Source: Apteryx mantelli
Taxonomy: Eukaryota > Chordata > Aves > Apterygiformes > Apterygidae
Length of the DNA stretch: 64,000 nucleotides
NCBI RefSeq assembly: GCF_036417845.1
Contig: NC_090011.1
Span: 930,001 to 994,000 of the forward strand
Reading direction: 5' to 3'
Positions 12,006-64,000 of the stretch are shown here, piece after piece (position 1 is the stretch's first letter; each line of letters opens with the position of its first letter). Below the pieces are notes generated by a model. It saw only the letters and a program-made list of their open reading frames with translations. It had not been told where the DNA came from and ran no database searches. The position numbers and the translations under genes are program-made.

Positions 12006-12341
12006 GAAAGGAGATGGAAGAATGCCTGAAGGCTGAGATTAAATCCAGTCAAGAGGAAATGAAGGCTTCATTGGACCAGCAGCTTATAAGTATCCAACAA
12101 CATCTAGAAAAGCAGCTCCGAGGTCCTCTTTCAGAGTTGAAAACAGAGGTGAAGGCAGCTGTCAACAGTTTGACCTCCCTCAGAAAAACTGTTGTCTGTG
12201 GATTTGAAAAGCAAGAAGGAGCTCTAGCAGATGCGTAGCAAATGAGTAGAGACCAGCTGAATCAATTGGAAGATCATTTAGCAAAAATATTCTCTAGGTT
12301 GGAGATAAACCAGGGACTGGGCCCTCAGTGGGGAAAACTAG
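12006..12341 (+). pseudogene. Decayed coiled-coil exon, copy 4
   Basis: The acceptor TTATTTACTCTAG is intact and the exon starts GKEMEECLKAEIKSSQEEMK. The block EEMKASLDQQLISIQQHLEKQ aligns with EEVERILSEKLATLQSRVEAA of the intact copy. The frame is stopped by TAG at 12236-12238, then stays open (QMSRDQLNQLEDHLAK and on) to ...GKL at 12341, 336 nt in total against 342 in the intact exon. The donor that should follow AAACTAG reads ATAACT instead of GTGAGC, so the splice site is lost. It carries two independent disabling changes. Confidence 0.7.
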
Positions 12342-23926: not shown

Positions 23927-24638
23927 GGCAACTGCAAGCACAGGCAGGTGAGTGCTTCCTGGCGTGTGAGAGAGGCTCCTTGTTGCTGGCGGGGAAGGTG
24001 GGAATGGGGAGCGCTGTGTGTCCGTGGGGCCAGCCCTTCACCCGGGCGGCCAGGAAGGAAGCCTGCTGCTTGCCTCCCAAGGTGTCCCTTGCCCTCCTGC
24101 CCTCTGCTGCCGCGGCAGCCCTGGCAAGGTGGACTGAGCAGGCAGCAGGGGCTGGAAGCCGTAAGAGCTGACATTCTTCAGAAGGCTCTCTTGCCAGAAG
24201 ACTCACACCTCTCTCTCTCCTTTCCACTTCCCTTTGCCTTTTACAGACCGACTGAAGAAAGAACACAGTAAGTGGCCTTTCATACTGATACTTGTTTGGC
24301 GACCATGAACTGCTGGGATGTCTTGGGGCACCTGCTGAGCTCAGGAAAGCCTCCTGGCCTCCCCCAGTTGTGCAGGGACACATCATGCTGTGATCATCAA
24401 GGCCCTGTAGAAAGGGAAGGCCATTACGTCAAAGGATCTGCTTGGGCCCTAGGCTGAGAGGTTGCTCCTGGGGTCCCCGGGGCGCACAACGCGGACCGGG
24501 AAGAGAGCTGCAGCAAGGGGAAAGGAGAAGTCAGCAAACGCCTGGGTGGGGAGACGTGGCGGGCTCTGAGGCGCAGTGCCTTGTCTTTGCTAAGTGCCTT
24601 TTCCCTTCCTTTTGTAGCTCAGGGGAAAGAAGAAAAGG
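23927..24638 (+). CDS. Heptad micro-exons, unit 1
   Basis: Reference unit for the array. E1 23927-23947 encodes GQLQAQA (acceptor CTTTCTTTTGCAG, donor GTGAGT). E2 24247-24267 encodes DRLKKEH (acceptor TTTGCCTTTTACAG, donor GTAAGT). E3 24618-24638 encodes TQGKEEK (acceptor TTCCTTTTGTAG, donor GTAAGT). All three are 21 nt and phase 1-1, so the last base of each exon gives the first base of the next codon: G, then AC for Asp; A, then CT for Thr; G, then GG for Gly. Leu at position 3 and Ala/Leu at position 7 of E1 would take coiled-coil core places; the rest is polar and charged. The arrangement matches the 21-nt heptad exons known in cytoplasmic tails of chicken B-G proteins. Expression is not shown by the sequence. 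Confidence 0.75.
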
Positions 24639-24899
24639 GTAAGTGGTCTGCGCTGCCTGGGACGTGGTCCTTGTGGAGAGGTCCCGTGGCAAGAAGGAGG
24701 TGCTGGTGTCCAAAGCCCTGGGACTTCTTGGGGCAGGCAAGGAGCCCCTTGTTGTGAGCAGGAGCGCAGCTGCTGGCCCTGTGCAGGCTGCCCAGCGGAG
24801 GTCTTCATCTTCATCTGGAGCCTGCCCGGCAGGCTTGCCTGAGGAACAGGAGCATGTGGAAGGGAGGTAGAGAGGGCCGGAAGGCAGAACTGGAATGAG

Positions 24900-25250
24900 G
24901 GGTGAGCGAAGGAAGGAAGGAAGGTGAGCAGAGCAGAGCAGAGCAGAGCAGAGGAGGAAGCGATAAGCAGGGCAAGAAGGAGGGAAGGAAGCCATTAAGG
25001 CTGAGTGGAAGGGAAGGGAAGGGTGGAGGTGTGGCAGGGCATCAGGGCTTGGGGAAGGACTTGCAGAAGGCAGGCTGGAGGGAGGGAGGGAAGGAAGGGT
25101 GGAAGGAAGTGTGGAAGGAAAGGACGAAGGAAGAATGAAAGGAAGGAAGGAAGCAAGCAAGCAAGCAAGCTAGGAACGACATGAAGGAAGGAGGGATTTG
25201 AAAAGGTTTTGTATGGATTGAAGGAAGGCAGGAGAAGAGGCTAGAAGGGG
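24900..25250 (+). repeat. Purine-rich GGAAG/GCAGA/CAAG segment (example from unit 1)
   Basis: Each unit has about 350 bp in which the + strand is almost all purine: GGAAG runs, a GCAGA pentamer tract (5-7 copies), GGGAGGGAGG and a CAAG tetramer tract. It lies in the long intron between E3 and the next E1. Minus-strand Pro/Ser/Leu-rich open frames of up to 209 codons in it are composition artefacts. Confidence 0.85.
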
Positions 25251-25560
25251 TCAAGACGGGAATGAGAGACAGGAGAAACTGAGAACGCGAGCACTCTGAA
25301 TTCTCCTGTGAGCACCATTGAGCTCGTGTGGGCTCTCTGCCTCAGGTAGGGCATGCACAGCGCTGGCCTTTGTTTAGCTGTGTGAGCCCAGGTGCCAAGC
25401 GTCTTCCCAGGGCAGGGCTGCACAGCAGCACAGTGCTGCACTGGTTGCCGAAGGCTGCTGCCTTCTCCCAAGAATCAGAACCCGACCAGGGTACTCGCCC
25501 AGCGCTGTGTGCAATGCCTCCCCCTGCAGTTTGTAACGGCCCTTCTGCTTTCTTTTGCAG

Positions 25561-26272
25561 GGCAACTGCAAGCACAGGCAGGTGAGTGCTTCCTGGCGTG
25601 TGAGAGAGGCTCCTTGTTGCTGGCGGGGAAGGTGGGAATGGGGAGCGCTGTGTGTCCGTGGGGCCAGCCCTTCACCCGGGTGGCCAGGAAGGAAGCCTGC
25701 TGCTTGCCTCCCAAGGTGTCCCTTGCCCTCCTGCCCTCTGCTGCCGCGGCAGCCCTGGCAAGGTGGACTGAGCAGGCAGCAGGGGCTGGAAGCCGTAAGA
25801 GCTGACATTCTTCAGAAGGCTCTCTTGCCAGAAGACTCACACCTCTCTCTCTCCTTTCCACTTCCCTTTGCCTTTTACAGACCGACTGCAGAAAGAACAC
25901 AGTAAGTGGCCTTTCATACTGATACTTGTTTGGCGACCATGAACTGCTGGGATGTCTTGGGGCACCTGCTGAGCTCAGGAAAGCCTCCTGGCCTCCCCCA
26001 GTTGTGCAGGGACACATCATGCTGTGATCATCAAGGCCCTGTAGAAAGGGAAGGCCATTACGTCAAAGGATCTGCTTGGGCCCTAGGCTGAGAGGTTGCT
26101 CCTGGGGTCCCCGGGGCGCACAACGCGGACCGGGAAGAGAGCTGCAGCAAGGGGAAAGGAGAAGTCAGCAAACGCCTGGGTGGGGAGACGTGGCGGGCTC
26201 TGAGGCGCAGTGCCTTGTCTTTGCTAAGTGCCTTTTCCCTTCCTTTTGTAGCTCAGGGGAAAGAAGAAAAGG
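25561..26272 (+). CDS. Heptad micro-exons, unit 2
   Basis: E1 25561-25581 GQLQAQA; E2 25881-25901 DRLQKEH; E3 26252-26272 TQGKEEK. Nearly identical to unit 1, with Lys to Gln in E2. Confidence 0.72.
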
Positions 26273-31190: not shown

Positions 31191-32117
31191 GTAAGTGGTC
31201 TGCGCTGCCTGGGACGTGGTCCTTGTGGAGAGGTCCCATGGCAAGAGGGAGGTGCTGGTGTCCAAAGCCCTGGGACTTCTTGGGGCAGGCAAGGAGCCCC
31301 TTGTTGTGAGCAGGAGCGCAGCTGCTGGCCCTGTGCAGGCTGCCCAGCGGAGGTCTTCATCTTCATCTGGAGCCTGCCCGGCAGGCTTGCCTGAGGAACA
31401 GGAGCATGTGGAAGGGAGGTAGAGAGGGCCGGAAGGCAGAACTGGAATGAGGGGTGAGCGAAGGAAGGAAGGAAGGTGAGCAGAGCAGAGCAGAGCAGAG
31501 CAGAGCAGAGGAGGAAGCGATAAGCAGGGCAAGAAGGAGGGAAGGAAGCCATTAAGGCTGAGTGGAAGGGAAGGGAAGGGTGGAGGTGTGGCAGGGCATC
31601 AGGGCTTGGGGAAGGACTTGCAGAAGGCAGGCTGGAGGGAGGGAGGGAAGGAAGGGTGGAAGGAAGTGTGGAAGGAAAGGACGAAGGAAGAATGAAAGGA
31701 AGGAAGGAAGCAAGCAAGCAAGCAAGCTAGGAACGACATGAAGGAAGGAGGGATTTAAAAAGGTTTTGTATGGATTGAAGGAAGGCAGGAGAAGAGGCTA
31801 GAAGGGGTCAAGACGGGAATGAGAGACAGGAGAAACTGAGAACGCGAGCACTCTGAATTCTCCTGTGAGCACCATTGAGCTCGTGTGGGCTCTCTGCCTC
31901 AGGTAGGGCATGCACAGCGCTGGCCTTTGTTTAGCTGTGTGAGCCCAGGTGCCAAGCGTCTTCCCAGGGCAGGGCTGCACAGCAGCACAGTGCTGCACTG
32001 GTTGCCGAAGGCTGCTGCCTTCTCCCAAGAATCAGAACCCGACCAGGGTACTCGCCCAGCGCTGTGTGCAATGCCTCCCCCTGCAGTTTGTAACGGCCCT
32101 TCTGCTTTCTTTTGCAG

Positions 32118-32834
32118 GGCAACTGCAAGCACAGGCAGGTGAGTGCTTCCTGGCGTGTGAGAGAGGCTCCTTGTTGCTGGCGGGGAAGGTGGGAATGGGG
32201 AGCGCTGTGTGTCCGTGGGGCCAGCCCTTCACCCGGGCGGCCAGGAAGGAAGCCTGCTGCTTGCCTCCCAAGGTGTCCCTTGCCCTCCTGCCCTCTGCTG
32301 CCGCGGCACTTCTGGCAAGGTGGACTGAGCAGGCAGCAGGGGCTGGAAGCCATAAGAGCTGACATTCTTCAGAAGGCTCTCTTGCCAGAAGACTCACACC
32401 TCTCTCTCTCTCTCCTTTCCACTTCCCTTTGCCTTTTACAGACCGACTGAAGAAAGAACACAGTAAGTGGCCTTTCCTTTCTGATACTTCTTTGGCGACC
32501 AGGAACTGCTGGGATGTCTTGGGGCACCTGCTGAGCTCAGGAAAGCCTCCTGGCCTCCCCCAGTTGTGCAGGGACACATCATGCTGTGATCATCAAGGCC
32601 CTGTAGAAAGGGAAGGCCATTACGTCAAAGGATCTGCTTGGGCCCTAGGCTGAGAGGTTGCTCCTGGGGTCCCCGGGGTGCACAACGCGGACCGGGAAGA
32701 GAGCTGCAGCAAGGGGAAGGGAGAAGTCAGCAAAGGCCTGTGTGGGGAGACGTGGCGGGCTCTGAGGCGCAGCGCCTTGTCTTTGCTAAGTGCCTTTTCC
32801 CTTCCTTTTGTAGCTCAGGTGAAAGAAGAAAAAG
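32118..32834 (+). CDS. Heptad micro-exons, unit 6 (C type)
   Basis: E1 32118-32138 GQLQAQA; E2 32442-32462 DRLKKEH; E3 32814-32834 TQVKEEK. First unit with Val in E3 and with AAA rather than AAG for its last Lys. It carries the C mark GCACTTCTGGC in the first intron. Confidence 0.72.
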
Positions 32835-33756
32835 GTAAGTGGTCTGCGCTGCCTGGGACGTGGTCCTTGTGGAGAGGTCCCGTGGCAAGAGGGAGGTGCT
32901 GGTGTCCAAAGCCCTGGGACTTCTTGGGGCAGGCAAGGAGCCCCTTGTTGTGAGCAGGAGCGCAGCTGCTGGCCCTGTGCAGGCTGCCCAGCAGAGGTCT
33001 TCATCTTCATCTGGAGCCTGCCCGGCAGGCTTGCCTGAGGAACAGGAGCATGTGGAAGGGAGGTAGAGAGGGCCGGAAGGCAGAACTGGAATGAGGGGTG
33101 AGCGAAGGAAGGAAGGAAGGTGAGCAGAGCAGAGCAGAGCAGAGCAGAGGAGGAAGCGATAAGCAGGGCAAGAAGGAGGGAAGGAAGCCATTAAGGCTGA
33201 GTGGAAGGGAAGGGAAGGGTGGAGGTGTGGCAGGGCATCAGGGCTTGGGGAAGGACTTGCAGAAGGCAGGCTGGAGGGAGGGAGGGAAGGAAGGGTGGAA
33301 GGAAGTGTGGAAGGAAAGGACGAAGGAAGAATGAAAGGAAGGAAGGAAGCAAGCAAGCAAGCAAGCTAGGAACGACATGAAGGAAGGAGGGATTTAAAAA
33401 GGTTTTGTATGGATTGAAGGAAGGCAGGAGAAGAGGCTAGAAGGGGTCAAGACGGGAATGAGAGACAGGAGAAACTGAGAACGCGAGCACTCTGAATTCT
33501 CCTGTGAGCACCATTGAGCTCGTGTGGGCTCTCTGCCTCAGGTAGGGCATGCACAGCGCTGGCCTTTGTTTAGCTGTGTGAGCCCAGGTGCCAAGCGTCT
33601 TCCCAGGGCAGGGCTGCACAGCAGCACAGTGCTGCACTGGTTGCCGAAGGCTGCTGCCTTCTCCCAAGAATCAGAACCCGACCAGGGTACTCGCCCAGCG
33701 CTGTGTGCAATGCCTCCCCCTGCAGTTTGTAACGGCCCTTCTGCTTTCTTTTGCAG

Positions 33757-34475
33757 GGCAACTGCAAGCACAGGCAGGTGAGTGCTTCCTGGCGTGTGAG
33801 AGAGGCTCCTTGTTGCTGGCGGGGAAGGTGGGAATGGGGAGCGCTGTGTGTCCGTGGGGCCAGCCCTTCACCCGGGCGGCCAGGAAGGAAGCCTGCTGCT
33901 TGCCTCCCAAGGTGTCCCTTGCCCTCCTGCCCTCTGCTGCCGCGGCAGCCCTGGCAAGGTGGACTGAGCAGGCAGCAGGGGCTGGAAGCCGTAAGAGCTG
34001 ACATTCTTCAGAAGGCTCTCTTGCCAGAAGACTCACACCTCTCTCTCTCTCTCTCCTTTCCACTTCCCTTTGCCTTTTACAGACCGACTGAAGAAAGAAC
34101 ACAGTAAGTGGCCTTTCCTTTCTGATACTTCTTTGGCGACCAGGAACTGCTGGGATGTCTTGGGGCACCTGCTGAGCTCAGGAAAGCCTCCTGGCCTCCC
34201 CCAGTTGTGCAGGGACACATCATGCTGTGATCATCAAGGCCCTGTAGAAAGGGAAGGCCATTACGTCAAAGGATCTGCTTGGGCCCTAGGCTGAGAGGTT
34301 GCTCCTGGGGTCCCCGGGGTGCACAACGCGGACCGGGAAGAGAGCTGCAGCAAGGGGAAGGGAGAAGTCAGCAAACGCCTGGGTGGGGAGACGTGGCGGG
34401 CTCTGAGGCGCAGCGCCTTGTCTTTGCTAAGTGCCTTTTCCCTTCCTTTTGTAGCTCAGGTGAAAGAAGAAAAAG
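33757..34475 (+). CDS. Heptad micro-exons, unit 7 (A type)
   Basis: E1 33757-33777 GQLQAQA; E2 34083-34103 DRLKKEH; E3 34455-34475 TQVKEEK. Long (CT)n before E2; 7 GCAGA copies. Confidence 0.72.
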
Positions 34476-35403
34476 GTAAGTGGTCTGCGCTGCCTGGGAC
34501 GTGGTCCTTGTGGAGAGGTCCCGTGGCAAGAGGGAGGTGCTGGTGTCCAAAGCCCTGGGACTTCTTGGGGCAGGCAAGGAGCCCCTTGTTGTGAGCAGGA
34601 GCGCAGCTGCTGGCCCTGTGCAGGCTGCCCAGCAGAGGTCTTCATCTTCATCTGGAGCCTGCCCGGCAGGCTTGCCTGAGGAACAGGAGCATGTGGAAGG
34701 GAGGTAGAGAGGGCCGGAAGGCAGAACTGGAATGAGGGGTGAGCGAAGGAAGGAAGGAAGGTGAGCAGAGCAGAGCAGAGCAGAGCAGAGCAGAGCAGAG
34801 GAGGAAGCGATAAGCAGGGCAAGAAGGAGGGAAGGAAGCCATTAAGGCTGAGTGGAAGGGAAGGGAAGGGTGGAGGTGTGGCAGGGCATCAGGGCTTGGG
34901 GAAGGACTTGCAGAAGGCAGGCTGGAGGGAGGGAGGGAAGGAAGGGTGGAAGGAAGTGTGGAAGGAAAGGACGAAGGAAGAATGAAAGGAAGGAAGGAAG
35001 CAAGCAAGCAAGCTAGGAACGACATGAAGGAAGGAGGGATTTGAAAAGGTTTTGTATGGATTGAAGGAAGGCAGGAGAAGAGGCTAGAAGGGGTCAAGAC
35101 GGGAATGAGAGACAGGAGAAACTGAGAACGCGAGCACTCTGAATTCTCCTGTGAGCACCACTGAGCTCGTGTGGGCTCTCTGCCTCAGGTAGGGCATGCA
35201 CAGCGCTGGCCTTTGTTTAGCTGTGTGAGCCCAGGTGCCAAGCGTCTTCCCAGGGCAGGGCTGCACAGCAGCACAGTGCTGCACTGGTTGCCGAAGGCTG
35301 CTGCCTTCTCCCAAGAATCAGAACCCGACCAGGGTACTCGCCCAGCGCTGTGTGCAATGCCTCCCCCTGCAGTTTGTAACGGCCCTTCTGCTTTCTTTTG
35401 CAG

Positions 35404-36116
35404 GGCAACTGCAAGCACAGGCAGGTGAGTGCTTCCTGGCGTGTGAGAGAGGCTCCTTGTTGCTGGCGGGGAAGGTGGGAATGGGGAGCGCTGTGTGTCC
35501 GTGGGGCCAGCCCTTCACCCGGGCGGCCAGGAAGGAAGCCTGCTGCTTGCCTCCCAAGGTGTCCCTTGCCCTCCTGCCCTCTGCTGCCGCGGCAGCCCTG
35601 GCAAGGTGGACTGAGCAGGCAGCAGGGGCTGGAAGCCATAAGAGCTGACATTCTTCAGAAGGCTCTCTTGCCAAAAGACTCACACCTCTCTCTCTCCTTT
35701 CCACTTCCCTTTGCCTTTCACAGACCGACTGCAGAAAGAACACAGTAAGTGGCCTTTCCTTTCTGATACTTCTTTGGCGACCATGAACTGCTGGGATGTC
35801 TTGGGGCACCTGCTGAGCTCAGGAAAGCCTCCTGGCCTCCCCCAGCTGTGCAGGGACACATCATGCTGTGATCATCAAGGCCCAGTAGAAAGGGAAGGCC
35901 ATTACGTCAAAGGTTCTGCTTGGGCCCTAGGCTGAGAGGTTGCTCCTGGGGTCCCCGGGGTGCACAACGCGGACCGGGAAGAGAGCTGCAGCAAGGGGAA
36001 GGGAGAAGTCAGCAAAGGCCTGTGTGGGGAGACGTGGCGGGCTCTGAGGCGCAGCGCCTTGTCTTTGCTAAGTGCCTTTTCCCTTCCTTTTGTAGCTCAG
36101 GTGAAAGAAGAAAAAG
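35404..36116 (+). CDS. Heptad micro-exons, unit 8 (B type)
   Basis: E1 35404-35424 GQLQAQA; E2 35724-35744 DRLQKEH, with acceptor TTTCACAG instead of TTTTACAG; E3 36096-36116 TQVKEEK. Confidence 0.72.
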
Positions 36117-37043
36117 GTAAGTGGTCTGCGCTGCCTGGGACGTGGTCCTTGTGGAGAGGTCCCGTGGCAAGAGGGAGGTGCTGGTGTCCAAAGCCCTGGG
36201 ACTTCTTGGGGCAGGCAAGGAGCCCCTTGTTGTGAGCAGGAGCGCAGCTGCTGGCCCTGTGCAGGCTGCCCAGCGGAGGTCTTCATCTTCATCTGGAGCC
36301 TGCCCGGCAGGCTTGCCTGAGGAACAGGAGCATGTGGAAGGGAGGTAGAGAGGGCCGGAAGGCAGAACTGGAATGAGGGGTGAGCGAAGGAAGGAAGGAA
36401 GGTGAGCAGAGCAGAGCAGAGCAGAGCAGAGCAGAGGAGGAAGCGATAAGCAGGGCAAGAAGGAGGGAAGGAAGCCATTAAGGCTGAGTGGAAGGGAAGG
36501 GAAGGGTGGAGGTGTGGCAGGGCATCAGGGCTTGGGGAAGGACTTGCAGAAGGCAGGCTGGAGGGAGGGAGGGAAGGAAGGGTGGAAGGAAGTGTGGAAG
36601 GAAAGGACGAAGGAAGAATGAAAGGAAGGAAGGAAGCAAGCAAGCAAGCAAGCTAGGAACGACATGAAGGAAGGAGGGATTTAAAAAGGTTTTGTATGGA
36701 TTGAAGGAAGGCAGGAGAAGAGGCTAGAAGGGGTCAAGACGGGAATGAGAGACAGGAGAAACTGAGAACGCGAGCACTCTGAATTCTCCTGTGAGCACCA
36801 TTGAGCTCGTGTGGGCTCTCTGCCTCAGGTAGGGCATGCACAGCGCTGGCCTTTGTTTAGCTGTGTGAGCCCAGGTGCCAAGCGTCTTCCCAGGGCAGGG
36901 CTGCACAGCAGCACAGTGCTGCACTGGTTGCCGAAGGCTGCTGCCTTCTCCCAAGAATCAGAACCCGACCAGGGTACTCGCCCAGCGCTGTGTGCAATGC
37001 CTCCCCCTGCAGTTTGTAACGGCCCTTCTGCTTTCTTTTGCAG

Positions 37044-37760
37044 GGCAACTGCAAGCACAGGCAGGTGAGTGCTTCCTGGCGTGTGAGAGAGGCTCCTTGT
37101 TGCTGGCGGGGAAGGTGGGAATGGGGAGCGCTGTGTGTCCGTGGGGCCAGCCCTTCACCCGGGCGGCCAGGAAGGAAGCCTGCTGCTTGCCTCCCAAGGT
37201 GTCCCTTGCCCTCCTGCCCTCTGCTGCCGCGGCACTTCTGGCAAGGTGGACTGAGCAGGCAGCAGGGGCTGGAAGCCATAAGAGCTGACATTCTTCAGAA
37301 GGCTCTCTTGCCAGAAGACTCACACCTCTCTCTCTCTCTCCTTTCCACTTCCCTTTGCCTTTTACAGACCGACTGAAGAAAGAACACAGTAAGTGGCCTT
37401 TCCTTTCTGATACTTCTTTGGCGACCAGGAACTGCTGGGATGTCTTGGGGCACCTGCTGAGCTCAGGAAAGCCTCCTGGCCTCCCCCAGTTGTGCAGGGA
37501 CACATCATGCTGTGATCATCAAGGCCCTGTAGAAAGGGAAGGCCATTACGTCAAAGGATCTGCTTGGGCCCTAGGCTGAGAGGTTGCTCCTGGGGTCCCC
37601 GGGGTGCACAACGCGGACCGGGAAGAGAGCTGCAGCAAGGGGAAGGGAGAAGTCAGCAAAGGCCTGTGTGGGGAGACGTGGCGGGCTCTGAGGCGCAGCG
37701 CCTTGTCTTTGCTAAGTGCCTTTTCCCTTCCTTTTGTAGCTCAGGTGAAAGAAGAAAAAG
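37044..37760 (+). CDS. Heptad micro-exons, unit 9 (C type)
   Basis: E1 37044-37064 GQLQAQA; E2 37368-37388 DRLKKEH; E3 37740-37760 TQVKEEK. Shift of 4,926 bp from unit 6 at every exon. Confidence 0.72.
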
Positions 37761-38682
37761 GTAAGTGGTCTGCGCTGCCTGGGACGTGGTCCTTGTGGAG
37801 AGGTCCCGTGGCAAGAGGGAGGTGCTGGTGTCCAAAGCCCTGGGACTTCTTGGGGCAGGCAAGGAGCCCCTTGTTGTGAGCAGGAGCGCAGCTGCTGGCC
37901 CTGTGCAGGCTGCCCAGCAGAGGTCTTCATCTTCATCTGGAGCCTGCCCGGCAGGCTTGCCTGAGGAACAGGAGCATGTGGAAGGGAGGTAGAGAGGGCC
38001 GGAAGGCAGAACTGGAATGAGGGGTGAGCGAAGGAAGGAAGGAAGGTGAGCAGAGCAGAGCAGAGCAGAGCAGAGGAGGAAGCGATAAGCAGGGCAAGAA
38101 GGAGGGAAGGAAGCCATTAAGGCTGAGTGGAAGGGAAGGGAAGGGTGGAGGTGTGGCAGGGCATCAGGGCTTGGGGAAGGACTTGCAGAAGGCAGGCTGG
38201 AGGGAGGGAGGGAAGGAAGGGTGGAAGGAAGTGTGGAAGGAAAGGACGAAGGAAGAATGAAAGGAAGGAAGGAAGCAAGCAAGCAAGCAAGCTAGGAACG
38301 ACATGAAGGAAGGAGGGATTTAAAAAGGTTTTGTATGGATTGAAGGAAGGCAGGAGAAGAGGCTAGAAGGGGTCAAGACGGGAATGAGAGACAGGAGAAA
38401 CTGAGAACGCGAGCACTCTGAATTCTCCTGTGAGCACCATTGAGCTCGTGTGGGCTCTCTGCCTCAGGTAGGGCATGCACAGCGCTGGCCTTTGTTTAGC
38501 TGTGTGAGCCCAGGTGCCAAGCGTCTTCCCAGGGCAGGGCTGCACAGCAGCACAGTGCTGCACTGGTTGCCGAAGGCTGCTGCCTTCTCCCAAGAATCAG
38601 AACCCGACCAGGGTACTCGCCCAGCGCTGTGTGCAATGCCTCCCCCTGCAGTTTGTAACGGCCCTTCTGCTTTCTTTTGCAG

Positions 38683-39401
38683 GGCAACTGCAAGCACAGG
38701 CAGGTGAGTGCTTCCTGGCGTGTGAGAGAGGCTCCTTGTTGCTGGCGGGGAAGGTGGGAATGGGGAGCGCTGTGTGTCCGTGGGGCCAGCCCTTCACCCG
38801 GGCGGCCAGGAAGGAAGCCTGCTGCTTGCCTCCCAAGGTGTCCCTTGCCCTCCTGCCCTCTGCTGCCGCGGCAGCCCTGGCAAGGTGGACTGAGCAGGCA
38901 GCAGGGGCTGGAAGCCGTAAGAGCTGACATTCTTCAGAAGGCTCTCTTGCCAGAAGACTCACACCTCTCTCTCTCTCTCTCCTTTCCACTTCCCTTTGCC
39001 TTTTACAGACCGACTGAAGAAAGAACACAGTAAGTGGCCTTTCCTTTCTGATACTTCTTTGGCGACCAGGAACTGCTGGGATGTCTTGGGGCACCTGCTG
39101 AGCTCAGGAAAGCCTCCTGGCCTCCCCCAGTTGTGCAGGGACACATCATGCTGTGATCATCAAGGCCCTGTAGAAAGGGAAGGCCATTACGTCAAAGGAT
39201 CTGCTTGGGCCCTAGGCTGAGAGGTTGCTCCTGGGGTCCCCGGGGTGCACAACGCGGACCGGGAAGAGAGCTGCAGCAAGGGAAAGGGAGAAGTCAGCAA
39301 ACGCCTGGGTGGGGAGACGTGGCGGGCTCTGAGGCGCAGCGCCTTGTCTTTGCTAAGTGCCTTTTCCCTTCCTTTTGTAGCTCAGGTGAAAGAAGAAAAA
39401 G
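38683..39401 (+). CDS. Heptad micro-exons, unit 10 (A type)
   Basis: E1 38683-38703 GQLQAQA; E2 39009-39029 DRLKKEH; E3 39381-39401 TQVKEEK. Differs from unit 7 by GGGAAAGGGAG in place of GGGGAAGGGAG in the second intron. Confidence 0.72.
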
Positions 39402-40329
39402 GTAAGTGGTCTGCGCTGCCTGGGACGTGGTCCTTGTGGAGAGGTCCCGTGGCAAGAGGGAGGTGCTGGTGTCCAAAGCCCTGGGACTTCTTGGGGCAGG
39501 CAAGGAGCCCCTTGTTGTGAGCAGGAGCGCAGCTGCTGGCCCTGTGCAGGCTGCCCAGCAGAGGTCTTCATCTTCATCTGGAGCCTGCCCGGCAGGCTTG
39601 CCTGAGGAACAGGAGCATGTGGAAGGGAGGTAGAGAGGGCCGGAAGGCAGAACTGGAATGAGGGGTGAGCGAAGGAAGGAAGGAAGGTGAGCAGAGCAGA
39701 GCAGAGCAGAGCAGAGCAGAGCAGAGGAGGAAGCGATAAGCAGGGCAAGAAGGAGGGAAGGAAGCCATTAAGGCTGAGTGGAAGGGAAGGGAAGGGTGGA
39801 GGTGTGGCAGGGCATCAGGGCTTGGGGAAGGACTTGCAGAAGGCAGGCTGGAGGGAGGGAGGGAAGGAAGGGTGGAAGGAAGTGTGGAAGGAAAGGACGA
39901 AGGAAGAATGAAAGGAAGGAAGGAAGCAAGCAAGCAAGCTAGGAACGACATGAAGGAAGGAGGGATTTGAAAAGGTTTTGTATGGATTGAAGGAAGGCAG
40001 GAGAAGAGGCTAGAAGGGGTCAAGACGGGAATGAGAGACAGGAGAAACTGAGAACGCGAGCACTCTGAATTCTCCTGTGAGCACCACTGAGCTCGTGTGG
40101 GCTCTCTGCCTCAGGTAGGGCATGCACAGCGCTGGCCTTTGTTTAGCTGTGTGAGCCCAGGTGCCAAGCGTCTTCCCAGGGCAGGGCTGCACAGCAGCAC
40201 AGTGCTGCACTGGTTGCCGAAGGCTGCTGCCTTCTCCCAAGAATCAGAACCCGACCAGGGTACTCGCCCAGCGCTGTGTGCAATGCCTCCCCCTGCAGTT
40301 TGTAACGGCCCTTCTGCTTTCTTTTGCAG

Positions 40330-41042
40330 GGCAACTGCAAGCACAGGCAGGTGAGTGCTTCCTGGCGTGTGAGAGAGGCTCCTTGTTGCTGGCGGGGAAG
40401 GTGGGAATGGGGAGCGCTGTGTGTCCGTGGGGCCAGCCCTTCACCCGGGCGGCCAGGAAGGAAGCCTGCTGCTTGCCTCCCAAGGTGTCCCTTGCCCTCC
40501 TGCCCTCTGCTGCCGCGGCAGCCCTGGCAAGGTGGACTGAGCAGGCAGCAGGGGCTGGAAGCCATAAGAGCTGACATTCTTCAGAAGGCTCTCTTGCCAA
40601 AAGACTCACACCTCTCTCTCTCCTTTCCACTTCCCTTTGCCTTTCACAGACCGACTGCAGAAAGAACACAGTAAGTGGCCTTTCCTTTCTGATACTTCTT
40701 TGGCGACCATGAACTGCTGGGATGTCTTGGGGCACCTGCTGAGCTCAGGAAAGCCTCCTGGCCTCCCCCAGCTGTGCAGGGACACATCATGCTGTGATCA
40801 TCAAGGCCCAGTAGAAAGGGAAGGCCATTACGTCAAAGGTTCTGCTTGGGCCCTAGGCTGAGAGGTTGCTCCTGGGGTCCCCGGGGTGCACAACGCGGAC
40901 CGGGAAGAGAGCTGCAGCAAGGGGAAGGGAGAAGTCAGCAAAGGCCTGTGTGGGGAGACGTGGCGGGCTCTGAGGCGCAGCGCCTTGTCTTTGCTAAGTG
41001 CCTTTTCCCTTCCTTTTGTAGCTCAGGTGAAAGAAGAAAAAG
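40330..41042 (+). CDS. Heptad micro-exons, unit 11 (B type)
   Basis: E1 40330-40350 GQLQAQA; E2 40650-40670 DRLQKEH; E3 41022-41042 TQVKEEK. No difference from unit 8 noticed. Confidence 0.72.
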
Positions 41043-41969
41043 GTAAGTGGTCTGCGCTGCCTGGGACGTGGTCCTTGTGGAGAGGTCCCGTGGCAAGAGG
41101 GAGGTGCTGGTGTCCAAAGCCCTGGGACTTCTTGGGGCAGGCAAGGAGCCCCTTGTTGTGAGCAGGAGCGCAGCTGCTGGCCCTGTGCAGGCTGCCCAGC
41201 GGAGGTCTTCATCTTCATCTGGAGCCTGCCCGGCAGGCTTGCCTGAGGAACAGGAGCATGTGGAAGGGAGGTAGAGAGGGCCGGAAGGCAGAACTGGAAT
41301 GAGGGGTGAGCGAAGGAAGGAAGGAAGGTGAGCAGAGCAGAGCAGAGCAGAGCAGAGCAGAGGAGGAAGCGATAAGCAGGGCAAGAAGGAGGGAAGGAAG
41401 CCATTAAGGCTGAGTGGAAGGGAAGGGAAGGGTGGAGGTGTGGCAGGGCATCAGGGCTTGGGGAAGGACTTGCAGAAGGCAGGCTGGAGGGAGGGAGGGA
41501 AGGAAGGGTGGAAGGAAGTGTGGAAGGAAAGGACGAAGGAAGAATGAAAGGAAGGAAGGAAGCAAGCAAGCAAGCAAGCTAGGAACGACATGAAGGAAGG
41601 AGGGATTTAAAAAGGTTTTGTATGGATTGAAGGAAGGCAGGAGAAGAGGCTAGAAGGGGTCAAGACGGGAATGAGAGACAGGAGAAACTGAGAACGCGAG
41701 CACTCTGAATTCTCCTGTGAGCACCATTGAGCTCGTGTGGGCTCTCTGCCTCAGGTAGGGCATGCACAGCGCTGGCCTTTGTTTAGCTGTGTGAGCCCAG
41801 GTGCCAAGCGTCTTCCCAGGGCAGGGCTGCACAGCAGCACAGTGCTGCACTGGTTGCCGAAGGCTGCTGCCTTCTCCCAAGAATCAGAACCCGACCAGGG
41901 TACTCGCCCAGCGCTGTGTGCAATGCCTCCCCCTGCAGTTTGTAACGGCCCTTCTGCTTTCTTTTGCAG

Positions 41970-42686
41970 GGCAACTGCAAGCACAGGCAGGTGAGTGCTT
42001 CCTGGCGTGTGAGAGAGGCTCCTTGTTGCTGGCGGGGAAGGTGGGAATGGGGAGCGCTGTGTGTCCGTGGGGCCAGCCCTTCACCCGGGCGGCCAGGAAG
42101 GAAGCCTGCTGCTTGCCTCCCAAGGTGTCCCTTGCCCTCCTGCCCTCTGCTGCCGCGGCACTTCTGGCAAGGTGGACTGAGCAGGCAGCAGGGGCTGGAA
42201 GCCATAAGAGCTGACATTCTTCAGAAGGCTCTCTTGCCAGAAGACTCACACCTCTCTCTCTCTCTCCTTTCCACTTCCCTTTGCCTTTTACAGACCGACT
42301 GAAGAAAGAACACAGTAAGTGGCCTTTCCTTTCTGATACTTCTTTGGCGACCAGGAACTGCTGGGATGTCTTGGGGCACCTGCTGAGCTCAGGAAAGCCT
42401 CCTGGCCTCCCCCAGTTGTGCAGGGACACATCATGCTGTGATCATCAAGGCCCTGTAGAAAGGGAAGGCCATTACGTCAAAGGATCTGCTTGGGCCCTAG
42501 GCTGAGAGGTTGCTCCTGGGGTCCCCGGGGTGCACAACGCGGACCGGGAAGAGAGCTGCAGCAAGGGGAAGGGAGAAGTCAGCAAACGCCTGGGTGGGGA
42601 GACGTGGCGGGCTCTGAGGCGCAGCGCCTTGTCTTTGCTAAGTGCCTTTTCCCTTCCTTTTGTAGCTCAGGTGAAAGAAGAAAAAG
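41970..42686 (+). CDS. Heptad micro-exons, unit 12 (C type)
   Basis: E1 41970-41990 GQLQAQA; E2 42294-42314 DRLKKEH; E3 42666-42686 TQVKEEK. Second intron has ACGCCTGGGTGG where units 6 and 9 have AGGCCTGTGTGG. Confidence 0.72.
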
Positions 42687-43608
42687 GTAAGTGGTCTGCG
42701 CTGCCTGGGACGTGGTCCTTGTGGAGAGGTCCCGTGGCAAGAGGGAGGTGCTGGTGTCCAAAGCCCTGGGACTTCTTGGGGCAGGCAAGGAGCCCCTTGT
42801 TGTGAGCAGGAGCGCAGCTGCTGGCCCTGTGCAGGCTGCCCAGCAGAGGTCTTCATCTTCATCTGGAGCCTGCCCGGCAGGCTTGCCTGAGGAACAGGAG
42901 CATGTGGAAGGGAGGTAGAGAGGGCCGGAAGGCAGAACTGGAATGAGGGGTGAGCGAAGGAAGGAAGGAAGGTGAGCAGAGCAGAGCAGAGCAGAGCAGA
43001 GGAGGAAGCGATAAGCAGGGCAAGAAGGAGGGAAGGAAGCCATTAAGGCTGAGTGGAAGGGAAGGGAAGGGTGGAGGTGTGGCAGGGCATCAGGGCTTGG
43101 GGAAGGACTTGCAGAAGGCAGGCTGGAGGGAGGGAGGGAAGGAAGGGTGGAAGGAAGTGTGGAAGGAAAGGACGAAGGAAGAATGAAAGGAAGGAAGGAA
43201 GCAAGCAAGCAAGCAAGCTAGGAACGACATGAAGGAAGGAGGGATTTAAAAAGGTTTTGTATGGATTGAAGGAAGGCAGGAGAAGAGGCTAGAAGGGGTC
43301 AAGACGGGAATGAGAGACAGGAGAAACTGAGAACGCGAGCACTCTGAATTCTCCTGTGAGCACCATTGAGCTCGTGTGGGCTCTCTGCCTCAGGTAGGGC
43401 ATGCACAGCGCTGGCCTTTGTTTAGCTGTGTGAGCCCAGGTGCCAAGCGTCTTCCCAGGGCAGGGCTGCACAGCAGCACAGTGCTGCACTGGTTGCCGAA
43501 GGCTGCTGCCTTCTCCCAAGAATCAGAACCCGACCAGGGTACTCGCCCAGCGCTGTGTGCAATGCCTCCCCCTGCAGTTTGTAACGGCCCTTCTGCTTTC
43601 TTTTGCAG

Positions 43609-44327
43609 GGCAACTGCAAGCACAGGCAGGTGAGTGCTTCCTGGCGTGTGAGAGAGGCTCCTTGTTGCTGGCGGGGAAGGTGGGAATGGGGAGCGCTGTG
43701 TGTCCGTGGGGCCAGCCCTTCACCCGGGCGGCCAGGAAGGAAGCCTGCTGCTTGCCTCCCAAGGTGTCCCTTGCCCTCCTGCCCTCTGCTGCCGCGGCAG
43801 CCCTGGCAAGGTGGACTGAGCAGGCAGCAGGGGCTGGAAGCCGTAAGAGCTGACATTCTTCAGAAGGCTCTCTTGCCAGAAGACTCACACCTCTCTCTCT
43901 CTCTCTCCTTTCCACTTCCCTTTGCCTTTTACAGACCGACTGAAGAAAGAACACAGTAAGTGGCCTTTCCTTTCTGATACTTCTTTGGCGACCAGGAACT
44001 GCTGGGATGTCTTGGGGCACCTGCTGAGCTCAGGAAAGCCTCCTGGCCTCCCCCAGTTGTGCAGGGACACATCATGCTGTGATCATCAAGGCCCAGTAGA
44101 AAGGGAAGGCCATTACGTCAAAGGATCTGCTTGGGCCCTAGGCTGAGAGGTTGCTCCTGGGGTCCCCGGGGTGCACAACGCGGACCGGGAAGAGAGCTGC
44201 AGCAAGGGAAAGGGAGAAGTCAGCAAACGCCTGGGTGGGGAGACGTGGCGGGCTCTGAGGCGCAGCGCCTTGTCTTTGCTAAGTGCCTTTTCCCTTCCTT
44301 TTGTAGCTCAGGTGAAAGAAGAAAAAG
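43609..44327 (+). CDS. Heptad micro-exons, unit 13 (A type)
   Basis: E1 43609-43629 GQLQAQA; E2 43935-43955 DRLKKEH; E3 44307-44327 TQVKEEK. Carries the GGCCCAGTAG variant otherwise seen in B units. Confidence 0.72.
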
Positions 44328-45255
44328 GTAAGTGGTCTGCGCTGCCTGGGACGTGGTCCTTGTGGAGAGGTCCCGTGGCAAGAGGGAGGTGCTGGTGTCC
44401 AAAGCCCTGGGACTTCTTGGGGCAGGCAAGGAGCCCCTTGTTGTGAGCAGGAGCGCAGCTGCTGGCCCTGTGCAGGCTGCCCAGCAGAGGTCTTCATCTT
44501 CATCTGGAGCCTGCCCGGCAGGCTTGCCTGAGGAACAGGAGCATGTGGAAGGGAGGTAGAGAGGGCCGGAAGGCAGAACTGGAATGAGGGGTGAGCGAAG
44601 GAAGGAAGGAAGGTGAGCAGAGCAGAGCAGAGCAGAGCAGAGCAGAGCAGAGGAGGAAGCGATAAGCAGGGCAAGAAGGAGGGAAGGAAGCCATTAAGGC
44701 TGAGTGGAAGGGAAGGGAAGGGTGGAGGTGTGGCAGGGCATCAGGGCTTGGGGAAGGACTTGCAGAAGGCAGGCTGGAGGGAGGGAGGGAAGGAAGGGTG
44801 GAAGGAAGTGTGGAAGGAAAGGACGAAGGAAGAATGAAAGGAAGGAAGGAAGCAAGCAAGCAAGCTAGGAACGACATGAAGGAAGGAGGGATTTGAAAAG
44901 GTTTTGTATGGATTGAAGGAAGGCAGGAGAAGAGGCTAGAAGGGGTCAAGACGGGAATGAGAGACAGGAGAAACTGAGAACGCGAGCACTCTGAATTCTC
45001 CTGTGAGCACCACTGAGCTCGTGTGGGCTCTCTGCCTCAGGTAGGGCATGCACAGCGCTGGCCTTTGTTTAGCTGTGTGAGCCCAGGTGCCAAGCGTCTT
45101 CCCAGGGCAGGGCTGCACAGCAGCACAGTGCTGCACTGGTTGCCGAAGGCTGCTGCCTTCTCCCAAGAATCAGAACCCGACCAGGGTACTCGCCCAGCGC
45201 TGTGTGCAATGCCTCCCCCTGCAGTTTGTAACGGCCCTTCTGCTTTCTTTTGCAG

Positions 45256-45968
45256 GGCAACTGCAAGCACAGGCAGGTGAGTGCTTCCTGGCATGTGAGA
45301 GAGGCTCCTTGTTGCTGGCGGGGAAGGTGGGAATGGGGAGCGCTGTGTGTCCGTGGGGCCAGCCCTTCACCCGGGCGGCCAGGAAGGAAGCCTGCTGCTT
45401 GCCTCCCAAGGTGTCCCTTGCCCTCCTGCCCTCTGCTGCCGCGGCAGCCCTGGCAAGGTGGACTGAGCAGGCAGCAGGGGCTGGAAGCCATAAGAGCTGA
45501 CATTCTTCAGAAGGCTCTCTTGCCAAAAGACTCACACCTCTCTCTCTCCTTTCCACTTCCCTTTGCCTTTCACAGACCGACTGCAGAAAGAACACAGTAA
45601 GTGGCCTTTCCTTTCTGATACTTCTTTGGCGACCATGAACTGCTGGGATGTCTTGGGGCACCTGCTGAGCTCAGGAAAGCCTCCTGGCCTCCCCCAGCTG
45701 TGCAGGGACACATCATGCTGTGATCATCAAGGCCCAGTAGAAAGGGAAGGCCATTACGTCAAAGGTTCTGCTTGGGCCCTAGGCTGAGAGGTTGCTCCTG
45801 GGGTCCCCGGGGTGCACAACGCGGACCGGGAAGAGAGCTGCAGCAAGGGGAAGGGAGAAGTCAGCAAAGGCCTGTGTGGGGAGACGTGGCGGGCTCTGAG
45901 GCGCAGCGCCTTGTCTTTGCTAAGTGCCTTTTCCCTTCCTTTTGTAGCTCAGGTGAAAGAAGAAAAAG
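45256..45968 (+). CDS. Heptad micro-exons, unit 14 (B type)
   Basis: E1 45256-45276 GQLQAQA; E2 45576-45596 DRLQKEH; E3 45948-45968 TQVKEEK. GCATGTGAGAG after E1 instead of GCGTGTGAGAG, a variant shared with units 21 and 22. Confidence 0.72.
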
Positions 45969-46895
45969 GTAAGTGGTCTGCGCTGCCTGGGACGTGGTCC
46001 TTGTGGAGAGGTCCCGTGGCAAGAGGGAGGTGCTGGTGTCCAAAGCCCTGGGACTTCTTGGGGCAGGCAAGGAGCCCCTTGTTGTGAGCAGGAGCGCAGC
46101 TGCTGGCCCTGTGCAGGCTGCCCAGCGGAGGTCTTCATCTTCATCTGGAGCCTGCCCGGCAGGCTTGCCTGAGGAACAGGAGCATGTGGAAGGGAGGTAG
46201 AGAGGGCCGGAAGGCAGAACTGGAATGAGGGGTGAGCGAAGGAAGGAAGGAAGGTGAGCAGAGCAGAGCAGAGCAGAGCAGAGCAGAGGAGGAAGCGATA
46301 AGCAGGGCAAGAAGGAGGGAAGGAAGCCATTAAGGCTGAGTGGAAGGGAAGGGAAGGGTGGAGGTGTGGCAGGGCATCAGGGCTTGGGGAAGGACTTGCA
46401 GAAGGCAGGCTGGAGGGAGGGAGGGAAGGAAGGGTGGAAGGAAGTGTGGAAGGAAAGGACGAAGGAAGAATGAAAGGAAGGAAGGAAGCAAGCAAGCAAG
46501 CAAGCTAGGAACGACATGAAGGAAGGAGGGATTTAAAAAGGTTTTGTATGGATTGAAGGAAGGCAGGAGAAGAGGCTAGAAGGGGTCAAGACGGGAATGA
46601 GAGACAGGAGAAACTGAGAACGCGAGCACTCTGAATTCTCCTGTGAGCACCATTGAGCTCGTGTGGGCTCTCTGCCTCAGGTAGGGCATGCACAGCGCTG
46701 GCCTTTGTTTAGCTGTGTGAGCCCAGGTGCCAAGCGTCTTCCCAGGGCAGGGCTGCACAGCAGCACAGTGCTGCACTGGTTGCCGAAGGCTGCTGCCTTC
46801 TCCCAAGAATCAGAACCCGACCAGGGTACTCGCCCAGCGCTGTGTGCAATGCCTCCCCCTGCAGTTTGTAACGGCCCTTCTGCTTTCTTTTGCAG

Positions 46896-60728: not shown

Positions 60729-61660
60729 GTAAGTGGTCTGCGCTGCCTGGGACGTGGTCCTTGTGGAGAGGTCCCGTGGCAAGAGGGAGGTGCTGGTGTC
60801 CAAAGCCCTGGGACTTCTTGGGGCAGGCAAGGAGCCCCTTGTTGTGAGCAGGAGCGCAGCTGCTGGCCCTGTGCAGGCTGCCCAGCGGAGGTCTTCATCT
60901 TCATCTGGAGCCTGCCCGGCAGGCTTGCCTGAGGAACAGGAGCATGTGGAAGGGAGGTAGAGAGGGCCGGAAGGCAGAACTGGAATGAGGGGTGAGCGAA
61001 GGAAGGAAGGAAGGTGAGCAGAGCAGAGCAGAGCAGAGCAGAGCAGAGCAGAGGAGGAAGCGATAAGCAGGGCAAGAAGGAGGGAAGGAAGCCATTAAGG
61101 CTGAGTGGAAGGGAAGGGAAGGGTGGAGGTGTGGCAGGGCATCAGGGCTTGGGGAAGGACTTGCAGAAGGCAGGCTGGAGGGAGGGAGGGAAGGAAGGGT
61201 GGAAGGAAGTGTGGAAGGAAAGGACGAAGGAAGAATGAAAGGAAGGAAGGAAGCAAGCAAGCAAGCAAGCTAGGAACGACATGAAGGAAGGAGGGATTTA
61301 AAAAGGTTTTGTATGGATTGAAGGAAGGCAGGAGAAGAGGCTAGAAGGGGTCAAGACGGGAATGAGAGACAAGAGAAACTGAGAACGGGAGCACTCTGAA
61401 TTCTCCTGTGAACACCACTGAGCTCGTGTGGGCTCTCTGCCTCAGGTAGGGCATGCACAGCGCTGGCCTTTGTTTAGCTGTGTGAGCCCAGGTGCCAAGC
61501 GTCTTCCCAGGGCAGGGCTGCACAGCAGCACAGTGCTGCACTGGTTGCCGAAGGCTGCTGCCTTCTCCCAAGAATCAGAACCCGACCAGGGTACTCGCCC
61601 AGCGCTGTGTGCAATGCCTCCCCCTGCAGTTTGCAATGGCCCTTCTGCTTTCTTTTGCAG

Positions 61661-62377
61661 GGCAACTGCAAGCACAGCTAGGTGAGTGCCTCCTGGCGTG
61701 TGAGAGAGGCTCCTTGTTGCTGGCGGGGAAGGTGGGAATGGGGAGCGCTGTGTGTCCGTGGGGCCAGCCCTTCACCCGGGCGGCCAGGAAGGAAGCCTGC
61801 TGCTTGCCTCCCAAGGTGTCCCTTGCCCTCCTGCCCTCTGCTGCCGCGGCAGCCCTGGCAAGGTGGACTGAGCAGGCAGCAGGGGCTGGAAGCCATAAGA
61901 GCTGACATTCTTCAGAAGGCTCTCTTGCCAGAAGACTCACACCTCTCTCTCTCTCTCCTTTCCACTTCCCTTTGCCTTTTACAGACCGACTGAAGAAAGA
62001 ACACAGTAAGTGGCCTTTCCTTTCTGATACTTCTTTGGCGACCAGGAACTGCTGGGATGTCTTGGGGCACCTGCTGAGCTCAGGAAAGCCTCCTGGCCTC
62101 CCCCAGTTGTGCAGGGACACATCATGCTGTGATCATCAAGGCCCTGTAGAAAGGGAAGGCCATTACGTCAAAGGATCTGCTTGGGCCCTAGGCTGAGAGG
62201 TTGCTCCTGGGGTCCCCGGGGTGCACAACGCGGACCGGGAAGAGAGCTGCAGCAAGGGAAAGGGAGAAGTCAGCAAACGCCTGGGTGGGGAGACGTGGCG
62301 GGCTCTGAGGCGCAGCGCCTTGTCTTTGCTAAGTGCCTTTTCCCTTCCTTTTGTAGCTCAGGGGAAAGAAGAAAAAG
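61661..62377 (+). CDS. Heptad micro-exons, unit 24
   Basis: E1 61661-61681 GQLQAQL; E2 61985-62005 DRLKKEH; E3 62357-62377 TQGKEEK, with G-type residue but the AAA Lys codon of V-type exons, so it is intermediate between the two E3 classes. Confidence 0.72.
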
Positions 62378-63304
62378 GTAAGTGGTCTGCGCTGCCTGGG
62401 ACGTGGTCCTTGTGGAGAGGTCCCGTGGCAAGAGGGAGGTGCTGGTGTCCAAAGCCCTGGGACTTCTTGGGGCAGGCAAGGAGCCCCTTGTTGTGAGCAG
62501 GAGCGCAGCTGCTGGCCCTGTGCAGGCTGCCCAGCGGAGGTCTTCATCTTCATCTGGAGCCTGCCCGGCAGGCTTGCCTGAGGAACAGGAGCATGTGGAA
62601 GGGAGGTAGAGAGGGCCGGAAGGCAGAACTGGAATGAGGGGTGAGCGAAGGAAGGAAGGAAGGTGAGCAGAGCAGAGCAGAGCAGAGCAGAGCAGAGGAG
62701 GAAGCGATAAGCAGGGCAAGAAGGAGGGAAGGAAGCCATTAAGGCTGAGTGGAAGGGAAGGGAAGGGTGGAGGTGTGGCAGGGCATCAGGGCTTGGGGAA
62801 GGACTTGCAGAAGGCAGGCTGGAGGGAGGGAGGGAAGGAAGGGTGGAAGGAAGTGTGGAAGGAAAGGACGAAGGAAGAATGAAAGGAAGGAAGGAAGGAA
62901 GCAAGCAAGCAAGCTAGGAACGACATGAAGGAAGGAGGGATTTGAAAAGGTTTTGTATGGATTGAAGGAAGGCAGGAGAAGAGGCTAGAAGGGGTCAAGA
63001 CGGGAATGAGAGACAAGAGAAACTGAGAACGGGAGCACTCTGAATTCTCCTGTGAGCACCATTGAGCTCGTCTGGGCTCTCTGCCTCAGCTAGGGCATGC
63101 ACAGCGATGGTCTTTGTTTAGGTGTGTGAGCCCAGGCGCCAAGGGTCTTGCCAGGGCAGGGCTGCACAGCAGCACAGTGCTGGACTAGTTGCCGAAGGCT
63201 GCTGCCTTCTCCCGAGAATCATAACCCTACCAGGGTACTTGCCCAGTGCTGTGTGCAATGCCTCCCCCTGCAGTTTGTAACGGCCTTTCTTCTTTCTTTT
63301 GCAG

Positions 63305-63649
63305 GGCAACTGCAAGCACAGCTAGGTGAGTGCTTCCTGGCGTGTGAGAGAGGCTCCTTGTTGCTGGCGGGGAAGGTGGGAATGGGGAGCGCTGTGTGTC
63401 CGTGGGGCCAGCCCTTCACCCGGGCGGCCAGGAAGGAAGCCTGCTGCTTGCCTCCCAAGGTGTCCCTTGCCCTCCTGCCCTCTGCTGCCGCGGCAGCCCT
63501 GGCAAGGTGGACTGAGCAGGCAGCAGGGGCTGGAAGCCATAAGAGCTGACATTCTTCAGAAGGCTCTCTTGCCAGAAGACTCACACCTCTCTCTCTCTCT
63601 CCTTTCCACTTCCCTTTGCCTTTTACAGACCGACTGAAGAAAGAACACA
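63305..63649 (+). CDS. Heptad micro-exons, unit 25 (partial)
   Basis: E1 63305-63325 GQLQAQL; E2 63629-63649 DRLKKEH. The E3 acceptor TTCCTTTTGTAG ends exactly at base 64000, so E3 lies just outside. About 63060-63300 is diverged from all other units while the rest is homogenised. Confidence 0.7.
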
Positions 63650-64000
63650 GTAAGTGGCCTTTCCTTTCTGATACTTCTTTGGCGACCAGGAACTGCTGGG
63701 ATGTCTTGGGGCACCTGCTGAGCTCAGGAAAGCCTCCTGGCCTCCCCCAGTTGTGCAGGGACACATCATGCTGTGATCATCAAGGCCCTGTAGAAAGGGA
63801 AGGCCATTACGTCAAAGGATCTGCTTGGGCCCTAGGCTGAGAGGTTGCTCCTGGGGTCCCCGGGGTGCACAACGCGGACCGGGAAGAGAGCTGCAGCAAG
63901 GGAAAGGGAGAAGTCAGCAAACGCCTGGGTGGGGAGACGTGGCGGGCTCTGAGGCGCAGCGCCTTGTCTTTGCTAAGTGCCTTTTCCCTTCCTTTTGTAG

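Follow-up and report, generated by a model that had tools for sequence, protein, structure and literature searches.

Several described systems come close to the one reported here. In chicken BG genes the number of heptad exons is 13–36 for the B12 haplotype (PMC4046983) and 37 for line 15I, with variation of the tail reported as selected (PMC5938342); they have one immunoglobulin V (IgV) exon and were described without a B30.2 domain (PMC8813856). Coding repeats whose unit holds several exons were reported for LPA, where KIV-2 is a series of 5.5-kilobase (kb) units with two exons each, numbering from 1 to over 40 (PMC4378929), and for nebulin, where an eight-exon 10-kb block, the triplicate region, occurs three times in one gene (PMC9109913). 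Here we analyzed 64,000 nucleotides (nt) of the kiwi Apteryx mantelli, positions 930001–994000 of contig NC_090011.1 (C34), hereafter the window; coordinates prefixed with C34 are those of the contig and all others those of the window. The window contains a tandem array of 1.64-kb units with three 21-nt exons per unit, for which an initial annotation, made from the sequence alone, had suggested a B-G gene. We conclude that the array is real and large, that its heptad micro-exons belong to the stalk region of a B30.2 gene and not to a B-G gene, and that a protein from the window copy is doubtful.

Structure of the array and its 21-nt exons

The window was scanned for a pyrimidine-rich acceptor, 21 nt and a GTRAG donor without any stop filter, and in a second version of the scan a filter against phase-1 stops was added. 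In the strict scan, 74 exons of 21 nt were recognized from 23927 to 63649. They follow one another as E1-E2-E3 without interruption (25 E1, 25 E2 and 24 E3), separated by introns of 299–305, 350–351 and 922–936 base pairs (bp), and the stop-filtered scan also gave 74, showing that all of them are open in phase 1. All lie on the plus strand. The E1 exons (23927–63325, the first at 23927–23947 and the last at 63305–63325) read xGG CAA CTG CAA GCA CAG GCA/CTA G and encode G-Q-L-Q-A-Q-A/L; the E2 exons (24247–63649, first at 24247–24267, last at 63629–63649) encode D-R-L-K/Q-K-E-H, with R-R-Q in one unit; and the E3 exons (24618–62377, first at 24618–24638, last at 62357–62377) encode T-Q-G/V-K/N-E-E-K. 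The next E3 begins at C34:994001, the first base past the window. As chance controls, the array was resampled 40 times at first order, which yielded 0.05 exons on average and never more than 1, and the same scan found 0 exons of 21 nt on the window minus strand and 0 in bases 1–23500. The exon counts, length, regular order and open frames of the initial annotation were thus borne out against controls close to zero. In the wider region C34:870001–1134000 the filtered scan found 199 plus-strand and 0 minus-strand exons of 21 nt; at other lengths there were none of 18 nt, 0 plus-strand and 1 minus-strand of 24 nt, and 12 plus-strand of 27 nt.

The array occupies 23547–64000 on the plus strand as 24 complete units of 1634–1649 bp, which differ by 0–2%, plus a 25th cut at the window edge, and goes on to about C34:1001979. 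Within it, the three-unit blocks u6–8, u9–11 and u12–14 (31738–46515, plus strand) form a higher-order repeat, whose matching units differ by 0–1 per 1000 (rounded, gaps uncounted) and whose blocks are marked by a GAGCA copy number cycling through 5.6, 7.6 and 6.6. Both the unit difference and the higher-order repeat agree with the earlier proposal that heptad exons grow in number when a kilobase cassette is duplicated in tandem. The long E3-E1 intron of each unit (for instance 24926–25196) contains purine-rich GAGCA and GAAG simple repeats, a possible slippage site.

The repeat rod of 518 residues given in the initial annotation corresponds to 74 × 7, and the array extends beyond it: together with the continuation to C34:1001979 it comprises 86 exons and 602 residues, junction codons included, without a stop. 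Outside the window the scan discards candidates with an internal stop, so that openness there is partly by construction, and no E2 copy was found in the last units (spacings from C34:994969, 996565 and 998176). An open B30.2 exon starts at C34:1002914, about 9 kb past the window, and the reading frame continues from the 86 exons into it, giving 791 amino acids (aa) in total. Part of this region is present twice, since a 13.7-kb duplication (C34:994514–1008218 versus 1034419–1048125, 99.6% identical) copies the array tail and the B30.2 exon; it is either real or an assembly duplicate. That identity, together with u6/u9 and u8/u11 pairs at 0 per 1000 (rounded), is what an array length inflated by repeat mis-assembly would look like, but differences of up to 2% separate other units, and it is unlikely that inflation would have affected three arrays of different unit length alike. 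We regard an assembly artefact as improbable.

Probable membership in an avian B30.2 family

Very probably, a B30.2 gene of the avian TRIM39-like/BTN1A1-like family has its stalk region in this array, which would be a multi-exon variable number tandem repeat (VNTR) growing by kilobase duplication. The array gene shares its cluster-type B30.2 with this family, and the B30.2 of the window is 79–87% identical to those of the database protein models P0004 and P0007 (kiwi), P0006 and P0012 (emu) and P0011 (ostrich). Among the 120 of 243 matches listed, the avian B30.2 relatives are mostly named ‘E3 ubiquitin-protein ligase TRIM39-like’ or BTN1A1-like. Such names should be taken loosely, as two genes of the duck carry the TRIM39-like label without being orthologues of TRIM39 (PMC10445537). 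By sequence, the closest solved structure is the B30.2 domain of BTN3A1 (E = 1.4e-38).

Evidence that such exons enter annotated proteins comes from kiwi P0004, the product of a sister gene, which combines a coiled-coil exon with ten heptads and B30.2. Ten of the seventeen 21-nt exons at C34:1071116–1082721, joined to the B30.2 exon at C34:1084936, gave exactly the rod of this protein and the beginning of its B30.2, in agreement with the earlier claim of real heptad micro-exons. A second kiwi model, P0130, pairs a coiled-coil exon of this kind with 17 heptads as counted by eye. P0131, apparently a fusion of two adjacent genes in a single model, contains a run of E1-like, E2 and E3. In emu P0012, DRLLEEH-TQAKEEK-GQLQGQL-DRLLEEH-TQVKEEN is followed by FLNIQRHK, the peptide of a 27-nt exon, and by B30.2; here DRLLEEH-TQVKEEN corresponds to the order E2-E3. 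These proteins bear on whether the 21-nt units might be chance splice-like motifs in a non-coding satellite. Copies of a unit inherit any chance motif, so that 74 near-identical copies amount to three independent motifs and only three independent open frames; judged from sequence, the case for coding is made by the homologous proteins and not by the sheer count of open copies. Annotated kiwi proteins use the same exon types, two other large arrays with different units contain five and (two units read) four 21-nt phase-1 exons, and the strand controls were empty for 21-nt exons. We give chance motifs practically no credence and consider them refuted at the level of the exon family by the exact reconstruction of the P0004 rod.

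As for other families, the array has the many 21-nt phase-1 heptad exons of chicken-type BG genes, the array gene has the heptads followed by B30.2 of butyrophilins, and the tandem kilobase units with frame-keeping exons are those of a multi-exon coding VNTR of the LPA KIV-2 type. A pattern search of C34:870001–1134000, which can miss divergent domains, gave no RING match and one B-box-like match on the minus strand (932001–932072). With no RING or B-box found by pattern on the plus strand, TRIM membership was rejected.

A B-G gene proper, with a V domain and a transmembrane exon upstream, would account for the 21-nt phase-1 heptad exons, of which chicken genes of one haplotype have 13–36 (PMC4046983). 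However, Ig V exons were found only at C34:824228 and 1107525, each beside its own C-type exon and a divergent B30.2 (regular-expression search of C34:870001–1134000 and tblastn of C34:820001–1134000, which a very divergent V could escape), and the stretch from the previous B30.2 (C34:937345) to the array yielded no Ig V, C or transmembrane exon. In addition, a B30.2 exon follows the array, and hydrophobic residues occupy heptad position 3 and partly position 7, versus 4 and 7 in chicken BG (PMC5938342), if the numbering is the same. The suggestion of B-G in the initial annotation could not be upheld, given that the two V exons found in 314 kb own separate C and B30.2 exons and none was found near the array; we consider a B-G gene very improbable. 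Membership in the chicken-type BG group was rejected on the missing V near the array and the B30.2 after the tail, splicing to which is itself inferred. Two near-identical conventional butyrophilin-type genes (V, C and divergent B30.2; C34:824228–833940 and 1107525–1116978) flank this part of the cluster.

Further arrays in the cluster

Upstream of the window, array A1 (C34:847227–915142) comprises 121 exons of 21 nt encoding 847 aa, mostly in 2.83-kb five-exon units. Its near-identical units include 20 copies of a QLQGQL exon type at a spacing of 2829–2833 bp, and it is followed by a 27-nt exon and B30.2. Exons preceding it correspond to two parts of P0007, its signal segment (100%) and its transmembrane segment (70%), and signal and transmembrane exons of the P0007 type were found only there, at C34:841790–845642. 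When the whole genome was searched for the pattern of E1 plus its splice sites, at least 98 matches appeared on the plus strand, all of them on C34, with 0 on the minus strand and 0 for a reversed control. Those matches include a third array at C34:1179160–1234783, with 24 E1 matches at a spacing of 2403–2424 bp and, in the two of its units that were read, four exons of 21 nt each, and a smaller one at C34:1350483–1364799 (six E1 matches). Because the unit lengths differ, the arrays appear to have grown independently. Besides the array of the window the cluster has two or more large arrays with different unit lengths, which supports the view that heptad micro-exons were multiplied there by kilobase duplication.

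C34 also holds at least 16 B30.2 matches with 82–100% aa identity to that of the window, 15 of the 16 without a stop (best 150 of 219 candidates scored). Many further B30.2 matches, mostly at 30–45% identity, lie on contigs C4 and C32 and on many small contigs, with an expansion on C4 and the small contigs.

Sequence variation among the units

In the 24 complete units the exons were more variable than the introns, which was unexpected: variable sites numbered 11/63 in exons, 1/78 in splice flanks and 49/1489 elsewhere (Fisher p = 1.5e-5). When three 21-nt blocks of intron were drawn at random (n = 20000), none of the draws reached 11 variable sites (mean 1.8, maximum 9). The number of distinct patterns across units was 7 for exons versus 31 for introns. 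Array A1 showed no clear excess (2/105 in exons versus 30/2594). Core splice positions varied at 0/24, where under 1 was expected. One E3 variant, in which several sites are changed together, occurs in two adjacent units (55788 and 57428) and is identical to an E3 of the P0004 gene (C34:1078649), which suggests that it came from short exchange tracts.

Does the window copy encode a protein?

P0004 homology places two upstream exons of the array gene on the plus strand of the window: a small exon at 11170–11229 (MAEISILER...) with an in-frame stop, and the coiled-coil exon at 12006–12297 (boundaries read off the sequence), which is interrupted by an in-frame stop close to its 3' end and deviates by one base in length ahead of the donor. 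An upstream coiled-coil exon of the P0004/P0130 type is thus present in the window copy but broken, whereas it is intact in the P0004 gene; it is not family-wide, as other members such as P0007 have other 5' ends. An alignment of two copies for upstream coding exons was uninformative. The window copy may now make no protein, or it may use a different first exon.

A number of observations weigh against a functional long rod. Both homologous upstream exons are broken, and the copy at C34:1028196 likewise has a stop in its coiled-coil exon. The P0004 model leaves unused every one of the five E2-type exons of its own gene, along with the two QLQGQL exons and the 27-nt exon. A protein search with the 602-residue rod found no long rod among proteins of 331–1053 aa (10 matches; scored were the 7997 candidates with the most words in common), P0004 being the only bird-named protein among the matches. 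In that rod, heptad position 3 is hydrophobic in 86% of heptads and position 7 in just 36%, so that the heptads look weakly hydrophobic and a coiled coil would be weak. The assembly may have miscounted the near-identical units. Finally, in 19 independent pairs between flank clusters the exons differed by 15.2% versus 8.4% for the flanks, with pN = 0.1525 and pS = 0.157 (proportions of non-synonymous and synonymous differences; 5 of 244 scan matches that are not of heptad type, C34:920212, 1032775, 1063402, 1091139 and 1122734, were left out of this comparison between arrays). In favour of the B30.2 gene stands the median pN/pS of the B30.2 exons, 0.515 for 22 of 28 pairs (those whose pS exceeded 0.05); against it, the six low-pS pairs outside this median include two at 1.63 and two at 0.82.

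Purifying selection on the heptad residues was not seen between arrays, pN being close to pS and the exons no better conserved than their flanks. Nor do we claim positive selection: a first pairwise table hinted at more non-synonymous change, but its de-duplication rule favoured differing exons, and in the cleaner version pN was close to pS.

The initial annotation had proposed a full rod if all exons were spliced. The frame is indeed open throughout; the upstream exons, however, are broken, no long protein was found and the sister model skips exon classes. A decaying copy, which rivals a working gene and not the family assignment, has somewhat less than an even chance in our estimate: its 5' part would be dead and the repeats would grow as a satellite-like passenger without a protein. 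Such decay would explain the stops and the one-base length change in the upstream exons, the near-identical units and block duplication, as in satellites, the exons being no more conserved than their flanks and the failure to find a long rod among proteins of 331–1053 aa. It does not readily explain why 74/74 exons retain exact length, frame and splice signals, why 0/24 core splice positions vary (under 1 expected) and why the downstream B30.2 exon is open, and an alternative first exon may yet be in use. That the window copy makes the long rod is, in our estimate, unlikely, although far from negligible.

Proposed mechanism

The observed exons, their order, open frame and continuity to B30.2, their likeness to kiwi, emu and ostrich stalks and the block duplication form the basis of the following model for the B30.2 stalk. 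We infer that the exons of the array undergo splicing, that they yield an intracellular helical spacer ahead of a ligand-binding B30.2 domain and that the length of this spacer matters. Each 1.64-kb unit would bring three symmetric phase 1-1 exons of 21 nt, one heptad apiece, and gain, loss or skipping of any units or exons would be frame-neutral, because every exon is 21 nt long and phase 1-1. Unequal exchange between 1.64-kb or 4.9-kb blocks would change the number of heptads, a spacer of variable length would sit before the B30.2 domain, and splicing could select subsets of exons. Going further, macrosatellite micro-exon arrays may act as an evolvable molecular ruler in a vertebrate immune-type gene family, in which array size sets the length of the rod bearing a B30.2 sensor domain, splicing picks heptad classes and heptad exons pass from array to array as tiny cassettes, leaving exon letters more variable than intron letters, at least three such arrays (1.64, 2.42 and 2.83 kb) having arisen separately in one bird; we put this forward as a speculative and rather improbable extension.

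If the exons are spliced, the locus would be a clear case of a macrosatellite setting protein length, and the stalk could lengthen or shorten with the repeat array. It would offer a test of why BG and BTN stalks vary in length and would tie copy-number variation of immune genes to a physical spacer. It would also be a warning for annotation, in that gene finders can drop 21-nt exons and short reads are expected to collapse such arrays.

Preceding gene and neighbouring sequence

A preceding gene of the same family lies at the start of the window on the plus strand. Its coiled-coil exons at 3047–3214 (168 nt) and 4213–4554 (342 nt) are both phase 1-1, the latter resembling by eye segments of kiwi P0132 and ostrich P0133; they are followed by a 27-nt exon found by the scan (5276–5302, FLKMQRYT) and by a PRY-SPRY (B30.2) coding exon with its stop codon (6810–7348). 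The boundaries of the coiled-coil and B30.2 exons were read off the sequence, and the last was also recognized by Pfam, in which B30.2 alone exceeded the curated cut-off for six open reading frames (ORFs) of the window. Positions 1–1507 and other places between genes on C34 contain ORFs resembling what we take to be reverse transcriptase of CR1-type long interspersed nuclear elements (for example 562 codons from C34:929822).

Comparison with known systems

Avian TRIM39-like/BTN1A1-like proteins contain the same kinds of heptad exons, and P0004 and P0130 share the upstream coiled-coil exon. The annotated kiwi stalks have 10 (P0004) and 17 (P0130) heptads, versus the 86 on offer in the array. 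Most of these 86 sit on units of 1.64 kb, and the upstream exon is defective here. The stalks of duck (P0137) and zebra finch (P0174) are also repeated, with repeats of about 113 and about 55 residues, respectively, as judged by eye. Mammalian BTN3A1 is similar in having a short heptad region before B30.2 (PMC8813856), but in mammalian butyrophilins this region is only short, and Ig V and C domains are present. Chicken BG genes likewise draw their heptads from 21-nt phase-1 exons whose number varies by gene, whereas in the kiwi array no IgV was found, B30.2 follows, the exon numbers are larger (86 and 121) and the units are kilobase tandem repeats.

The initial annotation considered this mode of growth unusual, but it has precedents in LPA KIV-2 (PMC4378929) and nebulin (PMC9109913). 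LPA KIV-2 resembles the array in being a multi-exon coding unit repeated head to tail with its introns and with the frame kept, but its exons of 160 and 182 bp encode a folded kringle, in contrast to three one-heptad exons of 21 nt. Nebulin differs in having normally three copies per allele, and its exons are not known to be one-heptad micro-exons. Among the open-licence titles listed, none concerns a kiwi heptad array, which is a weak negative. Heptad micro-exons and multi-exon coding VNTRs are each already known; here one gene cluster unites them on the scale of 86 and 121 exons and a third array of 24 E1-bearing units.

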